Under the pieces are notes generated by a model. It saw nothing but the letters and a program-made list of their open reading frames with translations. It had not been told where the DNA came from and searched no databases. Both the position numbers and the translations under genes were made by a program. From positions 62,001 to 126,000 of the forward strand of contig JAJDCQ010000051.1 in the NCBI GenBank assembly GCA_029260755.1: a stretch of 64,000 nucleotides of DNA. Reading direction: 5' to 3'. Origin of the DNA: Planctomycetota bacterium. GTDB lineage: Bacteria; Planctomycetota; J058; JAJDCQ01. Of this stretch, positions 41,283-56,335 are shown piece after piece (the stretch's first letter is position 1; each line of letters starts with the position of its first letter).

Positions 41283-42155
41283 TCAGAAGCTGAGGTGGTC
41301 AGGTCCGAAGACGAGCGACCCGCCGTAGAATCCGGTCGCGCCGAGGAGCAGTGCGGCAACGAGCAGAGCCGCGCGATAGCCGAGGAGCAGCTTTGGATCC
41401 TCGCGACGTCGGGCGAGCTCGGAGAGCACCGCCGCCGCGACGATCACGATGGCTGAGCCCGTGCCAAGCCATCGGTGCCAGCCAAGAACCGACGCGAGCT
41501 CGCCGGGGTATCGAGCGAAGGCGCCGGCCGCCCAGCCGAGTCCGGCGGCGACGACCGCGCCAGCCGCTCCTGCGGCGATGTTGACGCGCGCGGTCGCCTC
41601 GGCGAGCGGCCTCGGGCCCCGGACGAGGACGAGGAGCTCGGCCAACGCCGCGACCAGGACGAGCGCGATCGGGAAGTGGATCGCGATCGGGTGGAGCTTG
41701 CCGAGGAAGCGGACGAGGCGTGCCGGGCCGTGCGGGTGATCGCCGTGGTCGGTCGCGTGGTCGTGACCAGTGCCTCCGTGGTCGTTGCCATGCGCGTCGT
41801 CGCCGTGGGCGTGGGCGGAGCCCCCACCGTTGCCGTCGTGGTCGCCGTGCCCGTCGTCATCATGGGCGTGCCCGCTGCCGGCGTCCGGGGCAAGCTGCGG
41901 CACGTTGGCGAGGAACGGCGTCGGGTCCTCGAGGAACTTCTTGCGGCAGCGACCGCAGCAGAGCCAGACGCGCGTGCCCTCGTGATCGACCGAGATCTCC
42001 GGGTCGACCGGCTCGTCCGGCATGACGGGGCACATGAGGTTCGTGGGCTTGGGGTCCGAGGACTCCTGGGCGGAAGCGTCCGGCGAGGCGGCGAGAAGCA
42101 CCAGAGCCAGAGCCAGCGCGACGGCGAGGGTCTGCGTTCGGGGCGGGGCTCTCAT
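41283..42155 (-). CDS. Membrane protein: TRASH/YHS-like metal domain, His linker, DUF2231-like helices
   Basis: 290 aa. Signal peptide to about residue 29. A metal domain has MCPVMPDEPVD, then VWLCCGRCRKKFLEDP, the TRASH/YHS pattern. A 60-residue His/Asp/Gly linker (HAHDDDGHGDHDGNGGG) precedes four helices starting KLHPIAIHFPIALVLVAAL, characteristic of DUF2231 membrane proteins. It faces the P-ATPase gene tail to tail. The fused layout suggests metal or heme sensing or handling at the membrane; no exact role is known. Confidence 0.75.
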   Translation of the reverse strand: MRAPPRTQTLAVALALALVLLAASPDASAQESSDPKPTNLMCPVMPDEPVDPEISVDHEGTRVWLCCGRCRKKFLEDPTPFLANVPQLAPDAGSGHAHDDDGHGDHDGNGGGSAHAHGDDAHGNDHGGTGHDHATDHGDHPHGPARLVRFLGKLHPIAIHFPIALVLVAALAELLVLVRGPRPLAEATARVNIAAGAAGAVVAAGLGWAAGAFARYPGELASVLGWHRWLGTGSAIVIVAAAVLSELARRREDPKLLLGYRAALLVAALLLGATGFYGGSLVFGPDHLSF

Positions 42156-42245: not shown

Positions 42246-43022
42246 TCAGTGATCGTCGTCGTGGCCGTCGTGGCCCTTCTTCTTGCCGTGATCGTCGTGG
42301 CCCTTCTTGCCGTGCTCGTCATGATCGTCGCCATGACCGTCGCCGTGACCGTCGCCGTGACCGTCGCCGTGACCGTCGTGACCGCCGTGCCCGAGCTTCG
42401 CCAGGTGGGCGGCCGGGTCGGCGTGCACCTTCTTCACGCACATCTTGCAGCAGAGTCGGACCAGCCGGTTGCCGAGGACGACGTCGAACGGCTTACCCAT
42501 CGCGTCGAGCTTCTCGCCGGAGACGACGCACGTGTCGAGGGTGTAGCTCCCCTTCTGCTCGGCGATGATGCGTTCGTCGAGCTTGGCGAGGAACTTCGCC
42601 GGGTCCTTCTTCAGGTCCTTGATGCAGCCCTTACAGCAGAGCTGGAGATACCGGTTGCCGTGGACGTAGTCGACCGGGTCGCCCATGTCTCCGCCCATCT
42701 CGTCGCCGCTCACCACGCATGGGCCCGCGGGGTAGTGCGGCTTCTGCTGGGCGATGATCGCCTCGTCCACCTTCTTCAGGATCGAGGCTGCGTCCTTGTG
42801 GAACTTCTTCGTGCAGCCCTTGCAGCAGAGCCGGATCTCACGTCCGTCGTGCTCGACCACGACCGGCTTGCCCATTCCGCCGAGCTTCTCGCCCGAGACC
42901 GGGCAGGTGTCGAGCGTGTAGGGGTCGGCTGCGCCGTCGTCGGCCCTCGTCATCGCAGTGAGGCCGACCGCCGCGCCGATCGTCAGGGCGGCCACCAGGA
43001 CGAGCTTCTTCGTTTGAGCCAT
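42246..43022 (-). CDS. Periplasmic metal protein with three TRASH-like domains and a His tail
   Basis: 258 aa. Signal peptide ending TRADDG. Three tandem units of about 60 residues each have an initial single Cys in (T)CPVSGEKL, PCVVSGDEM or TCVVSGEKL and a later CCKGCTKKFHKD, CCKGCIKDLKKD or CCKMCVKKVHAD. This is the CxxxG plus CCxxC pattern of TRASH/YHS metal domains. The tail is GHGDGH repeats and ends GHDDDH. It could bind several soft metals. It is divergently transcribed from the BNR protein gene. Confidence 0.85.
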   Translation of the reverse strand: MAQTKKLVLVAALTIGAAVGLTAMTRADDGAADPYTLDTCPVSGEKLGGMGKPVVVEHDGREIRLCCKGCTKKFHKDAASILKKVDEAIIAQQKPHYPAGPCVVSGDEMGGDMGDPVDYVHGNRYLQLCCKGCIKDLKKDPAKFLAKLDERIIAEQKGSYTLDTCVVSGEKLDAMGKPFDVVLGNRLVRLCCKMCVKKVHADPAAHLAKLGHGGHDGHGDGHGDGHGDGHGDDHDEHGKKGHDDHGKKKGHDGHDDDH

Positions 43023-43275: not shown

Positions 43276-44490
43276 ATGCGTCTTCGTACCGTCCTCGCCG
43301 GCCTCGCGATCTCCTCGATCACCCTCTTCAGCGGGTCGTCGCTCGCACTCGCGGAGGGTCCGGTCCGTGTCGCCAGCGAGCTGAGCCCGATCCAGCCGAG
43401 CATCGCGATGGATGGCGACGGCAACATCTACGTCGCGTTCATCGGCGGCCGCGGGAGTAAGGACATCTACGTCATCAGTTCAGCCGACGGCGGCCGGTCC
43501 TTCGGTGAGCCGGTGAAGGCGATGGACGTCGGCGGCGAGGCGGCCGGCGGTCGCCAGCGCGGGCCGCGGATCGGCGTCGACGACAAGAAACGGATCTACG
43601 TCTCCGCCGTTCAGCAGCTCGAGGGCAAGGGGCCGGGCCAGAAGTTCCCGCAGGGCGACGTGTGGCTCACCGTCTCGAGCGACGGCGGCAAGACGTTCTC
43701 GAAGCCCGTGCAGTGCAACGACCGGCGCAAGGCGGTCGACACGGAAAAGGCGAAGAAGAGCGCGAAGGAAGGCATGCACTGGATGGCGGTCCAGGGCGAC
43801 GGGACGGTCCATCTCTGCTGGCTCGACCACCGCCTCGCGCCGAAGCTCGGCCAGATGATCGCCTACACCAAGGTGACCGACGCGGGGACCAAGGTGGCGC
43901 CCAACGTCATCGCCTACGCCGCGCCGGACACCGTCTGCCAGTGCTGCACGCCCGGGCTCGCCGTCGACGCGAAGGGCAACCCATCGATCGCCTTCCGCAA
44001 TGCGATCGCGGGCGACAACCAAGTCTGGGTCGTCCGCTCGACCAACAAGGGCAAGTCGTGGAAGAAGGCCGCGCCCGTGACCCGGGCGAAGGCCAACATC
44101 AACCAGTGCCCGATGGACGCTCCGTCGGTCGCCGTCACCTCCGACGGCAAGAAAGTCGCCGTCGCCTGGATGGACCAGCGCAGCGGCAAGCGGAACACCT
44201 GGCTGCGGCTGCCGAACGGCAAGGAGATCCCGCTCGCCAACGCCGCGGGCGCCCAGCAGGGCCATCCGAACGTCACGCTCGACGCGAGCGGCAACGTCTG
44301 GGCGGTGTGGACCGAGATCGGCGGCGGCGAGCGCGCGATCTACGGGCTCGCTCCGAAGGCGAAGCGCGCTGTCCGGATCTCGGAAGAGGCCGACGTCGGG
44401 TTCCCCGTCATCGCCTGGAGCGAGAAGACCGGCGCCGTCGTCGCCTACGAGGTGGGCGGCGGCGTCGTCGTGCGTCGCTGGCCGGAGTAA
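43276..44490 (+). CDS. Exported BNR/sialidase-like beta-propeller protein
   Basis: 404 aa. ATG with AGGAGG five bases upstream; signal peptide ending ALAEGP. Several BNR (Asp-box) repeats are visible, such as SSADGGRSF, SSDGGKTF and STNKGKSW, so the fold is a sialidase-like propeller. There is no sialidase arginine triad that I can assign. A conserved-looking DTVCQCCTPG motif with three Cys could hold metal. Its last 87 bases are repeated at 45832-45918. Confidence 0.8.
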   Translation: MRLRTVLAGLAISSITLFSGSSLALAEGPVRVASELSPIQPSIAMDGDGNIYVAFIGGRGSKDIYVISSADGGRSFGEPVKAMDVGGEAAGGRQRGPRIGVDDKKRIYVSAVQQLEGKGPGQKFPQGDVWLTVSSDGGKTFSKPVQCNDRRKAVDTEKAKKSAKEGMHWMAVQGDGTVHLCWLDHRLAPKLGQMIAYTKVTDAGTKVAPNVIAYAAPDTVCQCCTPGLAVDAKGNPSIAFRNAIAGDNQVWVVRSTNKGKSWKKAAPVTRAKANINQCPMDAPSVAVTSDGKKVAVAWMDQRSGKRNTWLRLPNGKEIPLANAAGAQQGHPNVTLDASGNVWAVWTEIGGGERAIYGLAPKAKRAVRISEEADVGFPVIAWSEKTGAVVAYEVGGGVVVRRWPE

Positions 44491-44507
44491 GTAGCCCACA
44501 CCGTCAG

Positions 44508-44864
44508 TCAGTCGTCCGCTCTCAGTTGGACGCGCTCGATCGTGCCGGCGGTCAGCCCGACCCGGTCGGCCGTGTGGCGGAGCTGCTCATTACTGACGGG
44601 CCGACCGGTCAGCCGAAACGAGACGTCCCCGCGGATCAGGTCCACTCGAGTGTCGTTGACGCCGTCCAGGCGTCCAAGGGCCTTCTCGAGGCCCGTCGTT
44701 CACGCGCCTCAGGTCGCTCCGAGGATCTCGATCGTCACCACCTCGGCGGCGGCCGGCTCGGCGGTGTGCGTCGCCCGGGGTGGTTCCGGAGCGGGCAGTC
44801 GGTCGAAAACCGCGTGGGCATTTGGGGATCGAGTCGGACCCTTGAGATAGTCCGCTCGGTCCAC
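44508..44864 (-). CDS. HMA-domain protein with two in-frame TGA at the CxxC site (putative selenoprotein A)
   Basis: Read through two TGA codons (44711-44709 and 44702-44700) the frame gives a 118-residue protein from GTG 44864. The HMA part is VTIEILGAT-U-GA-U-TTGLEKAL (Sec52, Sec55), then RLDGVNDTRVDL and a normal beta-alpha-beta end. The TGAs replace both cysteines of GMTCxxC. No signal peptide is present; the first 35 codons have lower third-position GC and may be linker or non-coding. The frame is the same as that of the upstream thioredoxin gene, whose TGA stop is 3 bases before this GTG, so a longer fusion is possible. Metal binding is inferred from the HMA fold. Confidence 0.65.
44658..44674 (-). 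promoter_or_regulatory. SECIS-like hairpin of HMA copy A
   Basis: In the mRNA, GACGCC and GGCGUC pair around the loop UGGAC. The stem begins 25 bases after the second UGA, so the loop is at about +32, inside the range of bacterial SECIS elements, and a G is among the first two loop bases. A second 5-bp stem (44678-44694) lies closer to the UGA. Confidence 0.45.
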
Positions 44865-44867
44865 GTT

Positions 44868-45641
44868 TCAGCGATTCGCGGCCTCCAGGGCGACCAACAC
44901 CTCGTCGGCGGTCTTGAAGCCGACGAGGCGAGCGAGCTCCTTGCCGTCCGCGGAGAGGACACGTGCGTCGGGAAGCCCGGAGACGCGGAACCACTTCGAG
45001 ACCTCCGGGTGGGCGTCCGTATCCACCTTCACAAAGACGAACCCTTCGAGCTTGGCGACAACCCGAGGCTCGACCCACGTCTCCTTCAGCATCTTCTTGC
45101 AGGGGCCGCACCAGTCGGCGTAGAAGTCGAGCAGCACCAGCTTCTCTTCGTCACGGGCCCGATCAAGCGCCGTCTGGATGAGGTCGGGCACCGGGCCGGT
45201 CGGCGCGGCGGTCGCGCGGCTCGGCACCTGCTCGGGCGTCAGCACCGTGGCGCCGAAGTTGAGGGCCTCGACCGCGTCGACCATCTCGTCGTCGGTTGGC
45301 TGCTTGCCGTCGGTCGTGACCGAGAAGAGGTCACGCTCGAGGTCCATCTCCACCTTCGCTACTCCGTGAAGCCCTTCCAGGGCTTCCTTGACCCCTTCGG
45401 GTCACGTCATTCACGTCGCCCCTGCTTTGCTCTTCATCATGCCGGTCACCTGGAGCACGACGGTGCGGCCCGTGGGAGTCGATGACGGGGGCGGGTCGAC
45501 CTCGGGCGGCGACGGTGCTGCCGGCGCCTCCGTCGGTCCCTCGCGCGCGGGTGGTGTTTCCCCGCCCTCGCAGCCGGCGGCCATCAAGAAGATGGTCCCG
45601 AGCACCGCTCCCGCGACGACTCTCGACATGATTCTCTTCAA
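44868..45641 (-). CDS. HMA-thioredoxin lipoprotein with UxxU site (putative selenoprotein B)
   Basis: 257 residues if two TGA codons (45413-45411 and 45404-45402) are decoded. TTG 45641 or ATG 45629 starts a signal with lipobox LMAAGC. A Pro/Ala linker leads to the HMA domain VVLQVTG...GAT-U-MT-U-PEGVKEALEGLHGV (Sec77, Sec80). Residues about 145-257 are a thioredoxin domain with FYADWCGPCKK (Cys178, Cys181). Conventional calling gives a 76-residue lipoprotein fragment and a separate thioredoxin from an internal GTG. The upstream and downstream halves are in exactly the same frame. A periplasmic Trx partner could reduce the UxxU pair or the metal. Confidence 0.75.
45369..45385 (-). promoter_or_regulatory. 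SECIS-like hairpin of HMA copy B
   Basis: AAGCCC pairs perfectly with GGGCUU around the loop UGGAA. The stem starts 16 bases after the second UGA, placing the loop at about +23. A second perfect 6-bp stem with a GAAG loop (45389-45404) includes the second UGA itself. Confidence 0.5.
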
Positions 45642-45831
45642 CGGTCACCACTCCTCTAGCTCTCGCCAATCTAGTTTCGGCGATCTCGGTCTCTGGATGC
45701 GCGGAAAGCAGAAGTGCTCCCACGACGACGCCGAGGCAGACGAGCAGATGTCGGCCGGCGTCGCCCGTCCGCCCCGTCGATTGCCGCGCGTCTGATCGGT
45801 TCCACCGGAGGGCCACCGCAGAGCGGTCACG

Positions 45832-45918
45832 CCCGTCATCGCCTGGAGCGAGAAGACCGGCGCCGTCGTCGCCTACGAGGTGGGCGGCGGCGGCGTCGTC
45901 CGGCGCTGGCGGGAGTAG
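45832..45918 (+). pseudogene. Duplicated 3' end of the BNR-protein gene
   Basis: These 87 bases match 44404-44490 without gaps and still end in a stop codon. The translation PVIAWSEKTGAVVAYEVGGG is identical at first, then three residues differ. No upstream part of the gene is present. It lies 7 bp from the convergent HMA copy C, as the intact gene lies 17 bp from HMA copy A, so an ancestral gene pair was duplicated and trimmed. Confidence 0.85.
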
Positions 45919-45925
45919 ACGCACC

Positions 45926-46477
45926 TCAGCGCCGCCAACGCGCCGCGACGATGCGGACCTCGCCGTCCGCGTGATCGAGCTCCGCGTCGAGCAGCCCCTC
46001 GCCAGTGAGCTCCGTCGCCAGGGCGATCGGCCGGGCGGAGCCGTCGATCCGGAACCGCGACGCGCCCACGGCGTCCCGCTCAACGCGTCCCCGTGCGAGG
46101 ATCGTCATCGCACCCGGGTCAAAGCCGCTCTCGCGCACCGCCCGTGGGATGGCGGCCAGGTCGAGATCGGCCTGCTGCGCCGGCTCGATCGTGACGATGT
46201 TCTCCTGGAGCGCAACGCGCACCTGGGCGACGCCCTCCAGGCGCCGCAGGCCGTCGGAGACGGCCTTCACTCACGGCAGTCACTCGAGGCCGCGAGCCAC
46301 GATCGTCGCCTGGACGAGGCCGGCCTCCACGGCGTCGACCGGCGCGGCGGCCCGCGGCGCGCGGTCGGGCGCGGTGTCGGGAGCCGGTGCGCTCGTGGTA
46401 GTCGCGCAGCCGGCGGCCGCCACGGCGGACGCGAGGAGGATGGGGCACAGCGGACAGGGGGCGGGGGCGCGCGTCAT
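45926..46477 (-). CDS. HMA-domain lipoprotein with UxxU site (putative selenoprotein C)
   Basis: 183 residues from ATG 46477 (AAGGAG seven bases upstream) if TGA at 46282-46280 and 46273-46271 are decoded. Signal with lipobox AVAAAGC. The HMA domain reads VQATIVARGLE-U-LP-U-VKAVSDGLRRLEGV (Sec66, Sec69) and continues AQVRVALQENIVTIEP and IPRAVRESGFDP, a full beta-alpha-beta-beta-alpha-beta pattern. About 40 C-terminal residues form a further unknown beta-rich part. It follows the outer-membrane protein gene by 20 bp, behind a MerR-type promoter. The domain makes a soft metal the likely ligand. Confidence 0.75.
46229..46245 (-). promoter_or_regulatory. SECIS-like hairpin of HMA copy C
   Basis: GGCGCC pairs with GGCGUC (one G-U) around the loop UGGAG. 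The stem begins 25 bases after the second UGA, identical to copy A. Another perfect 7-bp stem (46249-46265) with a UCC loop lies closer to the UGA. Confidence 0.45.
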
Positions 46478-46497
46478 GGGAGTCTCCTTCTCGTTCG

Positions 46498-47382
46498 CTA
46501 GAACCGGATCTTCACGGCCAGCCCGGCGCCCAAGCGCCGGTGGCCGAGGTCGTCCTCGATCTCGTCGACGACCGGGATGCGGACGTTCACCTCGAGCTGG
46601 ACCGATGGCGTGACGTAGAGCTGCAGGCCGGGGGCGGCCCAGACCTCGAACCCCTCGTCGTCGGCGCCGCGCTCTCCGGCGCGGCTCTCGACGCGATAGG
46701 TCGCCAGCAGCTCGGCGACGAGCCGTACCTCGAGCTCCTCGCCCGTCTCGAAGCGGGCCGGGTGGAGCCGGAACCAGTAGGCGACGTCGAGATGGGCGGT
46801 CGGGCCGGCGCGGAAGCCGTCGTGCCGCGTCGTGTGTCGCAGCCACGCGTCGGCCGAGAACCGGTGCCGGTCGCGCACAAGCGTGACGACGGCGCCGATG
46901 CCCGAACCCCAGCCACCCGTCCCGAGCTGGAGCCTTCGCGGGATCTCGACGCCCCCGTCGCGGCGGTCGTGCTCGGCCGTCGGAGCGACGAGCTCGGCGA
47001 GCGCGGCGAAGCGCGTCGACTTCATCACCTCGTCCGACTGGAACAGGCTCACCTTCGCGCGCAGGCGGACGTCGCCCAAGCCTGCGAGCGCCTTGTCATT
47101 GCCGCGGCCGGCGGCGTCGGCGAACTCGACGCGGCGGTGGAGGACGAGCGGCGCGGTCAGCCGAAGCTCGATCTTGGTCGTCAGCCCGACGATCGCTTGC
47201 GCGTCGAGGCGGAGGTCGCGGAGGTCGCCGGTCTCGGTGTAGCGGAGAAAGCCACGTGCGGTGGGCAGCTCGGGCGAGGTGACCCCGCCGTCCTCGGTCT
47301 CGATGTTGGCCCGGGCTGGCGTCGGGAGGGCGCCGGCGACGACGAGGGCGACGATGGCAATCGCGGGTGGGGCGAGGCGCAT
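46498..47382 (-). CDS. Outer-membrane beta-barrel protein of a metal operon
   Basis: 294 aa. Signal peptide ending TPARANI, then alternating amphipathic strands (TKIELRLTAPLVL, DVRLRAKVSLFQ, HRFSADAWLRHT) and a final AVKIRF, typical for outer-membrane barrels assembled by BamA. It resembles transporter-type barrels often annotated next to copper genes, but I cannot name the family. The ATG lies at the predicted transcription start of the MerR-type promoter, so the mRNA may be leaderless. HMA copy C follows. Confidence 0.75.
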   Translation of the reverse strand: MRLAPPAIAIVALVVAGALPTPARANIETEDGGVTSPELPTARGFLRYTETGDLRDLRLDAQAIVGLTTKIELRLTAPLVLHRRVEFADAAGRGNDKALAGLGDVRLRAKVSLFQSDEVMKSTRFAALAELVAPTAEHDRRDGGVEIPRRLQLGTGGWGSGIGAVVTLVRDRHRFSADAWLRHTTRHDGFRAGPTAHLDVAYWFRLHPARFETGEELEVRLVAELLATYRVESRAGERGADDEGFEVWAAPGLQLYVTPSVQLEVNVRIPVVDEIEDDLGHRRLGAGLAVKIRF

Positions 47383-47388
47383 GGCCTG

Positions 47389-47420
47389 ATCCTACACCCT
47401 GCACCCGGGTGCAAGGTCAA
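47389..47420 (-). promoter_or_regulatory. MerR-family promoter with 20-bp spacer
   Basis: On the minus strand TTGACC (-35, 47420-47415) and TAGGAT (-10, 47394-47389) are separated by 20 bp holding the dyad TTGCACCCGGGTGCAGGG. Over-long spacers with central dyads are the hallmark of MerR/CueR-controlled promoters. The stop codon of the merR gene is embedded in the -35 box. The expected start site coincides with the ATG at 47382. Confidence 0.8.
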
Positions 47421-47854
47421 GGGCCTTTCTCGAGCCGTCTCCCGTCGGTCCTCGTGGCCGCCTCGACGAACCCGGCGATGACGCGACATCGGCCGGCCGC
47501 GGTGCCCGCGCGGCAGCGGCCGAGCAGCGTGCGGAGTGCGTCGCGGAGCCGTTGCAGCTCGCGCAGCTCCGCGTCGAGGTCGACGAGGCGCTCCTCGATG
47601 AGCTTCTGCACGCGGCGTCGTCCGCCGCGTCCGTCGCCGAGGCCGAGCAGCTCGGCGACGTCGTCGAGGCGAAAGCCGGCGCGCTGCGCGGCCTTGATGA
47701 AGCGGAGGCGCTCGATCGCTTCCTCTCCGTAGACGCGGTAGCGGGCGCTCGTCCGGGCGGCGGGCTCGAGGAGGCCTCGACGCTCGTAGTAGCGGACCGT
47801 GGAGACGGGCACGCCCGCATCCGCGGCGAGCTTGCCGATCGTCAGGGCTCTCAC
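47417..47854 (-). CDS. MerR-family metal regulator
   Basis: 145 aa. N-terminal HTH LTIGKLAADAGVPVSTVRYYERRGLL and wing RYRVYGEEAIERLRFIKAAQRAGF. A dimer helix follows, then CRAGTAAGRC, two Cys with eight residues between, the spacing of the mercury sensor MerR rather than CueR (seven). The third MerR cysteine, expected after DG in the dimer-helix start, is Gly here (GDGRGGRR). The ligand is therefore open: Cu, Ag, Hg or Zn. It ends the copper operon and abuts its likely target promoter. Confidence 0.88.
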   Translation of the reverse strand: MRALTIGKLAADAGVPVSTVRYYERRGLLEPAARTSARYRVYGEEAIERLRFIKAAQRAGFRLDDVAELLGLGDGRGGRRRVQKLIEERLVDLDAELRELQRLRDALRTLLGRCRAGTAAGRCRVIAGFVEAATRTDGRRLEKGP

Positions 47855-47874: not shown

Positions 47875-54370
<6,496 letters not shown>

Positions 54371-54374
<4 letters not shown>

Positions 54375-56335
54375 TTCCCTCCGCGCCCGAGGTGCCGCTT
54401 CTTCACGGAGCCGCAGGTGAGCATCGACGCGCCGAAGTAGGGATTCCGCACCTCGGCGCCGAGCTGGAGCCAGCTTGCACCGTCCCCGAACGCCATCGGG
54501 CAGTGCGTCTCGGCGTAGACGTCATTGCCTTCGTGTCCAACCTCTCGCTCGAGGGCGAGGAGTGCGTTGGAGGCGTTGCGAAAGGCTACACGAGCACCCT
54601 TGATGTCTTCGCTTCCCGCGGCGGCGCCGGCGCTCCGTTCGAGGGCGGCGGCGCTCTTCATCCAGAGACCGTGGGCTTCACCCTTCGCGAGCGTCATGTC
54701 GACCTTCGTGACGGCCTCGCTCATCCGCTCGAGCGCGGCCCGGGCGCCCGCCAGGTCATCGCCGGCCAGGGCGTCTTGCGCGGTGAGGTACGCCGAGTAG
54801 ACGGGCGCGAGCGCGGAGCGGAGCGGGCCGAGGCCGTCGTCGGGCTCCTCGCCCTCGATGCTCATCATCGAGGGCTTCGCCTCGATCTGAAGCGCGCTGT
54901 CGATCTTGAAGTTGCCGTTCACGACGATGCGGTCGCCCTCGTCGAGGCCCGAGAGGACGATGTAGTGGCCACCCGCCCGCGCGCCCAGCACCACCTCGCG
55001 GCCTTCGTAGGTCGGCCGCCACTCCTCGTCCGTGGGCTCGCGGCCGTCGGTGTCCTTGGCCTCGACGTAGACCACGGCGCGGCGACCGGTCTTGAGGACG
55101 GCGCGGACGGGGACGACGAGCGGCTTGCTCGCGTCTCCGGCGGCCGGGGCGTAGCCGAGCTCCTCGGCCGGGACGAGGTCCATGCCGCAGACGTCGCATT
55201 CGCCGGGGCCGTCCTTGACGATCTCGGGGTGCATCGGGCTGATCCACTTGCCGGCGAGCTTCGGGTCCATCACCCGGCCGCCGCTCGCCACACTGCTCGC
55301 TACGATTGATCGGACGAACATGCCGGGCTTCAGCCGACCGTCCTCGTTCTCGACGTTCACCCGAATCTTGATCGTGCGGGTCTTGCGATCGAGGACGGGA
55401 TCGATGAACGCGATCCAGCCCTTGAACTTCTCGCCTGGATAGGCCTCCGTTTCGATGGTCACCTCCTGTCCGTAGCGGATCCAGGTGAGGTCGCTCTCGT
55501 AGGCGTCGAGGCGCACCCACACGTGCGACAGGTCGGCGACGACGTAGATCGGCGTCCCCTCGCCGACGTACTCGCCCTCCTGCCGGAGCTTTTCGATGAC
55601 GACCCCCGCCATGGGAGAGTTGATCTCGACCCGGTCCTCGGGCGTTCCGCGCGTCTCGACCGCGCGGATCTGATCGTCGCCGAGGCCCCAGAGGCGAAGC
55701 TTCTCGCGGGCGGAGTCGAGGCTCCGCCGGTCGCTCTCGCGGAGGAACTCGCTTCGCTCGGTAGACTCGTCCACGCGCTTCTTCGCCTGGATCAGCTCCT
55801 CCTGAGCCTTGTAGAGCGACGGGCTGTAGACCTGGACGAGGTGGTCGCCGGTGCGCACCTCGACGCCCGTGTAGTCGACGTAGAGGCGGTCGAGCCGCCC
55901 GGGGACCCAGGCGGTCACGGTGCGGACGCGCGTCTCGTCGTAGTCGACCATGCCGACGAGGCGCACCTGGGCCTCGACGAAGGCCCGCTCGACCGGGGCC
56001 GTCGAGATCTCGGCCAGCTTGCGGTCCGACTCGCTCATCGCGAGGGCCCGGGGTCCCGGATCGGCGCCGCCGCTCGCGAGGGGGATCAGGTCCATCCCGC
56101 AGATCGGGCACTTGCCGGGCTTGGGCAGCTTGATCTGCGGGTGCATCGAGCACGTCCAGATCGTCGCCGCGCGAGGCGCATCGCTCTGCCCATCCGGAGC
56201 CGCGGCCGGCGCGGTCGCGTGGCCCCGGTTCCATCCGATCATGTAGCCAGATCCGATGGCCGCGACGACCGCGAGACCCGCGATTGCGATGGCGAGGATC
56301 TTCCAGGGAAAAGGACTCTTCACGGACTCGTTCAT
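54371..56335 (-). CDS. cusB: CusB-type adaptor with two HMBD domains and DUF3347-like end
   Basis: 654 aa. One N-terminal membrane anchor (about 11-33). HMBD 1 reads TCSMHPQIKLPKPGKCPICG at about 60-85. A membrane-fusion core with hairpin helices (VDESTERSEFLRESDRRS) follows. A second HMBD (SPMHPEIVKDGPGECDVCG) is inserted in the barrel region near 365-390. The C-terminal 170 residues are helical with HCPMAFGDGASWLQ, as in DUF3347. Two HMBDs in one adaptor are unusual. It overlaps cusC and cusA by 4 bp. Confidence 0.93.

Follow-up and report, generated by a model that had tools for sequence, protein, structure and literature searches.

Usual MerP, CopZ and HMA domains carry a CxxC motif. The protein described here, P1, shares with MerP, CopZ and the HMA domains of P1B ATPases (PF00403) the same fold and the same position of the two ligand residues, but combines a predicted UxxU pair (U, selenocysteine, Sec) with a putative lipobox anchor, the CxxC form being seen in its Cys homologs. 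UxxU metal-binding selenoproteins with two Sec have already been predicted, as listed in tables within the accessible parts of two reviews (PMC13188914, PMC9312934). The family model NF041115 (UxxU_metal_bind, a “putative mercuric reductase” UxxU family) resembles P1 in describing a metal-binding domain with UxxU and two Sec, but P1 lies far below its cut-off of 95 bits: P1 scores 19.8 bits and its neighbors P2 and P3 score 46.6 and 37.3 bits, and none of the 392 genomes of the phylum holds a match over the cut-off. P1 further differs from NF041115 by its putative lipobox, its C-terminal beta region and its porin partner. A second family, NF045683 (MerT_CopZ_Se), is by its description a heavy-metal transport selenoprotein with a CopZ-like part, akin to the P1 kind; it is a MerT/CopZ fusion with a cut-off of 375 bits, and its C-terminal part is matched by P3 with 21.0 bits and by P2 with 13.7 bits. 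In the portions of the literature accessible to our search, we found neither a SECIS made of tandem hairpins nor a planctomycete Sec-HMA lipoprotein, and likewise no mention of the lipoprotein family, its porin partner, the P2-type fusion or the two-hairpin element.

The P1 gene, its neighborhood and its relatives

The window, i.e. the whole 64-kb stretch of DNA that was analyzed, contains the following features around P1:

56332..57495, minus strand: CusC-like outer-membrane channel, named from its position (no NCBIfam match at E 1e-20)
54371..56335, minus strand: RND adaptor, CusB-like (TIGR01730, 116.8 bits, cut-off 94.9)
50340..54374, minus strand: CusA/CzcA-family RND pump (TIGR00914, 752.3 bits, cut-off 701.45)
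47875..50343, minus strand: copper-type P1B ATPase (TIGR01511, 608.5 bits, cut-off 397)
47417..47854, minus strand: MerR-family regulator (best model MerR, 106.6 bits, below the cut-off of 150.85)
46498..47382, minus strand: outer-membrane porin-like protein, whose homolog adjoins the P1 homolog in relatives
45926..46477, minus strand: P1, predicted HMA lipoprotein (lipobox-like motif) with two in-frame UGA codons and a C-terminal beta region (ORF translation, Pfam, alignment, AlphaFold)
46477-46475, minus strand: ATG start codon of P1
46280..46282, minus strand: UGA1, predicted Sec66 of P1 (Cys in homologs)
46271..46273, minus strand: UGA2, predicted Sec69 of P1 (Cys in homologs)
45928-45926, minus strand: terminal stop TGA of P1
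44868..45641, minus strand: P2, lipoprotein (TTG at 45641 or ATG at 45629) with a UMTU HMA domain fused to a thioredoxin domain (WCGPC)
45413-45411 and 45404-45402: UGA codons of P2
within 44508..44867, minus strand: P3, HMA domain with UGAU
44711-44709 and 44702-44700: UGA codons of P3

With TGA written as U, P1 reads MTRAPAP...AVAAAGC24...RGLE-U66-LP-U69-VKAV...WRR before the terminal TGA, and an AAGGAG lies upstream of its ATG. The preliminary description, without naming a strand, had placed two in-frame TGAs, nine bases apart, at the CxxC site of an HMA domain whose frame and fold were otherwise undisturbed. Translation of the minus strand confirmed this: the two internal TGAs are the only in-frame stops between the start and the terminal stop, both ligand positions of the CxxC-type metal site are UGA where homologs have Cys, and Pfam HMA (PF00403) matches residues 62-120 at 32.3 bits, against a gathering cut-off of 24.8, with both TGAs read as Cys. 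The chance that two random stops among the 182 codons of P1 would hit exactly both ligand codons is about 6e-5. The lipobox-like motif AVAAAGC24 lies near the N-terminus and, in terms of motif conservation, its C24 is invariant in the nine rows of alignment A1 (nine P1-type sequences) and conserved to at least 90% in the 19 sequences of alignment A5.

An AlphaFold model of P1 (19 sequences, TGA as Cys) reached a mean pLDDT of 85.7 and predicts HMA-like strands and helices at residues 54-134 and further strands to residue 182, residues 1-50 being of low confidence. “Free HMA lipoprotein”, the label first given to P1, was right as far as it went but left out these strands predicted after the HMA domain. 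The best Foldseek match of model residues 52-130 was MerP, the PDB matches also including CopZ and copper-ATPase HMA domains, and sequence profiles agreed with these MerP, CopZ and copper-ATPase matches.

The same-strand run ahead of P1, P2 and P3, from the outer-membrane channel through the RND adaptor, the CusA/CzcA pump, the copper ATPase and the MerR regulator to the porin, is a metal efflux cluster. Within it, the regulator stays under every metal-specific model cut-off, and the window's own porin-like protein has no Pfam match. P2 and P3, two further UxxU HMA domains, follow just downstream of P1 on the same strand, and translation of P3 may either begin at a separate GTG or continue from P2. 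An 86-nt direct repeat, 95% identical, occupies window positions 44404-44489 and 45832-45917; through it the 3' end of the BNR-repeat gene is found again in the gap between P1 and P2, which hints at an insertion or duplication of the P2-P3 stretch. Exported TRASH/YHS-like metal-binding proteins are encoded beside the Sec genes (window positions 42246-43022 and 41283-42155), and the former, which has no internal UGA, weakly matches NF041197 (dual-CXXC small (seleno)protein) at 21 bits against a cut-off of 40.

A search of 5.8 billion predicted proteins, which reaches only relatives sharing exact five-residue words, gave a single match at E 1e-3, the window's own truncated 114-aa frame, and gene callers seem to miss such Sec-HMA proteins. 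The P1 query had no match over named genome contigs with search patterns that include one across the site requiring Cys codons. At the level of genomes, it matched 15 of 148, the source genome included. The sites of the 14 others comprise seven UxxU (L022-L026, L029, L032), one CxxU (L030), one UxxC (L033), one CxxC (L028) and four HMA domains that are ATPase-like by reading (L027, L031, L034, L035), so that homologs, whose CxxC or UxxU forms the preliminary description had proposed to look for, exist in all four forms, UxxU, UxxC, CxxU and CxxC. The same lipoprotein carries UxxU in other Planctomycetota, usually next to the same porin gene: a porin homolog lies directly upstream of the P1 homolog, on the same strand, in 13 of the 17 loci compared (all except L039, L042, L044 and L045). 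When the porins of four relatives were compared with Pfam PF13557, one reached the family (25.7 bits, cut-off 22). The two TGA columns of P1 are also TGA in other genera, with the frame conserved on both sides. Because the two-TGA pattern recurs in related genomes, neither chance nor assembly error is a credible origin, and an assembly error at the TGAs of P1 was rejected on this ground.

Used as a wider query, A1 matched 145 of the 392 genomes at 1e-8, many via general HMA domains, and added further UxxU genes, a UxxC form (L060) and a CxxU form (L062); searching the classes of genomes G319 (29 genomes) and G150 (23 genomes) added no new genome. Reading of 19 further stretches gave UxxxU (L128, L129, L130), UxxxC (L133, L134), UxxC (L131, L135), CxxU (L137) and CxxxC (L132) sites, the rest having no such frame by pattern or falling outside the by-eye reading. 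The UxxxU frames (these three plus L173 and L176, described below) and the UxxxC frames are HMA-like, with ligands three residues apart instead of two. At L090 (minus strand, from 8425), one frame comprises a lipobox-like motif, a UPMU HMA domain, a middle region, a UMAU HMA domain and a WCAPC thioredoxin domain, i.e. four predicted Sec in a protein that joins P1-like and P2-like modules.

RNA hairpins downstream of the UGA codons

Two hairpins were delineated in A4, a gapless alignment of 72 nt from UGA1 for 22 sequences (P1, UPIU and P3 kinds), which does not include two P2-type sites that have a different register. In the window they are:

46248..46266, minus strand: hairpin 1 (A4 columns 17-35, 8 bp, starting 4 nt after UGA2)
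46228..46246, minus strand: hairpin 2, the predicted SECIS (A4 columns 37-55, loop G-[G/U] 31-32 nt after UGA2)

The stems, A4 columns 17-24/28-35 and 37-44/48-55, form in 88.1% of the 352 pair cells, and RNAalifold unaided recovers the same two hairpins. Changes on both sides of a pair affect 47 cells, versus 17.1 in shuffles and 8-16 when the pairing is slid, the shuffle comparison overstating the support because the A4 rows are related. Each hairpin has at least six of its eight pairs in 20 of the 22 rows (all but L082 and L088_P3a) versus none of 11 Cys homologs, four of which are ATPase-like, and the loop of hairpin 2 has G then G/U in all 22 rows. Compared with the expectation imposed by the protein, the P1 gene itself is only slightly beyond for hairpin 1 (P 0.12) and further beyond for hairpin 2 (P 0.02), with a joint P of 0.003, P values overstating the support for the same reason. 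Fold z-scores versus synonymous recodings ranged from -4.4 to +0.2 over 24 sites, 20 of them below -1.3 and L088_P3a being without structure (+0.16), from -2.1 to -0.6 for four single-Sec forms, and from -2.1 to +0.8 for the 11 Cys homologs, among which L035 folds better than its own recodings (-2.07). The single-Sec forms are few and vary: both hairpins persist in UxxC L060, hairpin 2 persists in CxxU L062 and L030 with hairpin 1 out of register, and in UxxC L033 neither is in register. The initial expectation of one hairpin per UGA, both under the SECIS loop rule, did not hold in full, many hairpin 1 loops, mostly of the UPIU kind, having no early G.

The bacterial SECIS model, as quoted in the accessible part of PMC13188914, comprises a G-[G/U] loop, 16-37 nt from UGA to loop and an energy of -7.5 kcal/mol or better, and the same text states that some selenoprotein genes fall outside it. 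UGA2 has a rule-meeting hairpin at 22 of the 24 sites, where synonymous recoding would give 3.2, and UGA1 has one at 14 of them, where it would give 4.2. The SECIS sought downstream of the P1 codons was obtained for UGA2 (-15.1 kcal/mol, loop GGA, 32 nt) but not for UGA1, whose best hairpin, at -6.7 kcal/mol, just misses the -7.5 limit; 10 of the 24 sites, this gene among them, have no rule-meeting UGA1 hairpin. Both P2-type sites meet the rules though not in the A4 register, and at some sites neither hairpin 1 nor hairpin 2 is the rule-meeting one, the best in L039 being a different hairpin. Some Cys homologs also pass the energy test at the corresponding pseudo-sites (L034 and L035 at both; L067, L027 and L031 at one), so the SECIS energy test alone is weak at high G+C. 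With its small G-[G/U] loop 31-32 nt after UGA2, hairpin 2 is like the bacterial SECIS of the bSECISearch model; the locus departs from that model by the extra conserved hairpin between UGA2 and the SECIS hairpin and by the two UGAs that precede. A search of Rfam over window positions 44400-46600 returned three matches at E up to 5, none of them above the gathering score.

A covariance model of both hairpins, R1, matched 40 of the 392 genomes at 0.01. Of the 30 loci returned, 18 were training sequences, and on reading, every one of the 12 others gave a Sec-HMA frame, with UxxU in nine, UxxC in one, which is the same gene as the already known L060, and UxxxU in two (L173, L176). Three of these UxxU loci were compared with Pfam HMA, one being over the cut-off and two below. 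In both UxxxU frames, the hairpins keep their distance from UGA2 and not from UGA1. Within the window, R1 gives 71.5 bits for P3 and 68.8 bits for P1, both training rows, and a weak 21.9 bits for P2.

Selenocysteine machinery and its co-occurrence with Sec-HMA genes

The Sec machinery was searched across the source genome (12.26 Mb, 276 contigs), a search for selA, selB, selC and selD having been set beforehand as a refutation test in the preliminary description. SelA (438.9 bits), SelB (334.7 bits) and SelD (343.4 bits) are all present over their cut-offs, together with tRNA-Sec. Two of these features are located as follows:

contig positions 127087-127180, on the same contig as P1 and about 1.1 kb past the window end: tRNA-Sec (69.4 bits, gathering score 47)
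116660-117586 of another contig (C11; locus L018): SelD, with one internal in-frame TGA in SGG-U-AGKL

ARAGORN calls the same tRNA as tRNA-SeC with anticodon tca, and 12 other RF01852 matches in the genome are all under the gathering score. The TGA of SelD lies at what we take to be the active-site position, and with this in-frame codon SelD is itself a predicted selenoprotein.

SelA is found in 245 of the 392 genomes of the phylum. It is present in all 22 genomes in which Sec-HMA frames were first read (P 2.2e-5) and in 38 of the 39 genomes of a set enlarged by six from further stretches and 11 from the RNA model (P 9e-8), these P values being indicative only since the genomes share ancestry and were selected by score. 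The exception is G279, whose UxxxU frame (L173) comes with both hairpins while no SelA match is present in an assembly that is 87% complete, reflecting an incomplete assembly or a loss. Among 11 genomes with Cys matches to A1 (seven read, four taken from a no-stops listing), two have SelA (G236 and G367), and G236 also has a UxxU gene (L170). Sec machinery and Sec-HMA genes thus go together.

Probable function of the UxxU pair and proposed decoding of its two codons

P1 is predicted to be an anchored lipoprotein whose Sec-x-x-Sec pair probably serves as a ligand for soft metal ions, Cu(I) for example. The insertion of Sec, the metal and the redox partner are predicted; we infer the identity of the metal from the neighboring genes, and the stronger binding by Sec put forward in the preliminary description would be expected. 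Once exported, the lipoprotein would bind Cu(I)/Ag(I), or conceivably Hg(II), through two selenolates and would exchange metal with the porin and the pump along the envelope, and the thioredoxin domain of P2 would keep the Sec pairs reduced. The fusion of both module kinds in the single frame of L090 supports a shared job of P1-like and P2-like modules.

Mercury, instead of copper or silver, is an unlikely physiological ligand. MerR is the best model of the regulator and MerP the best Foldseek match of P1, but the former score lies below its cut-off, no mercury model reaches cut-off among the genes tested, the ATPase is over the copper cut-off of TIGR01511, and CopZ models outscore MerP for P1.

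We regard as quite improbable a role of UxxU as a redox center, be it in a diselenide-forming periplasmic oxidoreductase or in a protein that pairs, as redox partner, with the thioredoxin domain of P2. Such a role would fit the statement, in the accessible part of PMC9312934, that redox defense is the task of almost every selenoprotein whose function is known, as well as the fusions of UxxU-HMA to thioredoxin in P2 and of both modules in L090. The fold, however, is that of a metal-site HMA domain, and the neighboring genes form a metal efflux cluster.

Two in-frame stops in P1 could also be ordinary nonsense mutations in a decayed gene, a reading already disputed in the preliminary description and now very hard to maintain, with the same two columns being TGA across genera, no other internal stop, and a frame and hairpins that are conserved around them. 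A genome-wide reading of UGA as another amino acid (Trp or Cys), to which in-frame TGAs in three neighboring genes might point, is scarcely conceivable: the Sec machinery is complete, and TGA terminates 32 of the 40 genes called in the window, P1 included, so that it is normally a stop there and was not reassigned wholesale.

As to how the predicted selenolate metal carrier would be decoded, SelB would bind hairpin 2, with its loop 31-32 nt after UGA2, and deliver Sec-tRNA at UGA2. The same loop is 40-41 nt from UGA1, beyond the usual range. Hairpin 1 would assist the reading of UGA1 in one of two ways: by binding SelB itself, its loop being 18-21 nt away, or by acting as a folded spacer that shortens the path to hairpin 2 and so puts it within reach. 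Hairpin 1 would be melted once UGA2 reaches the A site. Tentatively, and with opinion almost evenly divided but tilting toward doubt, we propose a dedicated planctomycete double-Sec element consisting of a UGA, two or three codons, a second UGA and a pair of directly adjoining hairpins, one adapted to each UGA. Of these, hairpin 1 would serve the first UGA or shorten its path to hairpin 2 and melt as the ribosome advances, hairpin 2 would serve the second, and the element would have spread as diselenol HMA metal carriers diversified within metal-efflux operons.

According to the accessible part of a 2026 review (PMC13188914), metal-ligand roles have been suggested for some selenoproteins, and roles in metal detoxification need further work. 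If true, the present reading would bring in, across the phylum, a set of selenoproteins whose Sec acts as a metal ligand pair and not as a catalytic residue. E. coli recodes a single UGA at 30-40%, according to the accessible part of PMC4513850, from which two independent events would be expected at about 10-15%; these genes would thus offer a compact natural test of how the ribosome decodes two Sec codons nine bases apart.
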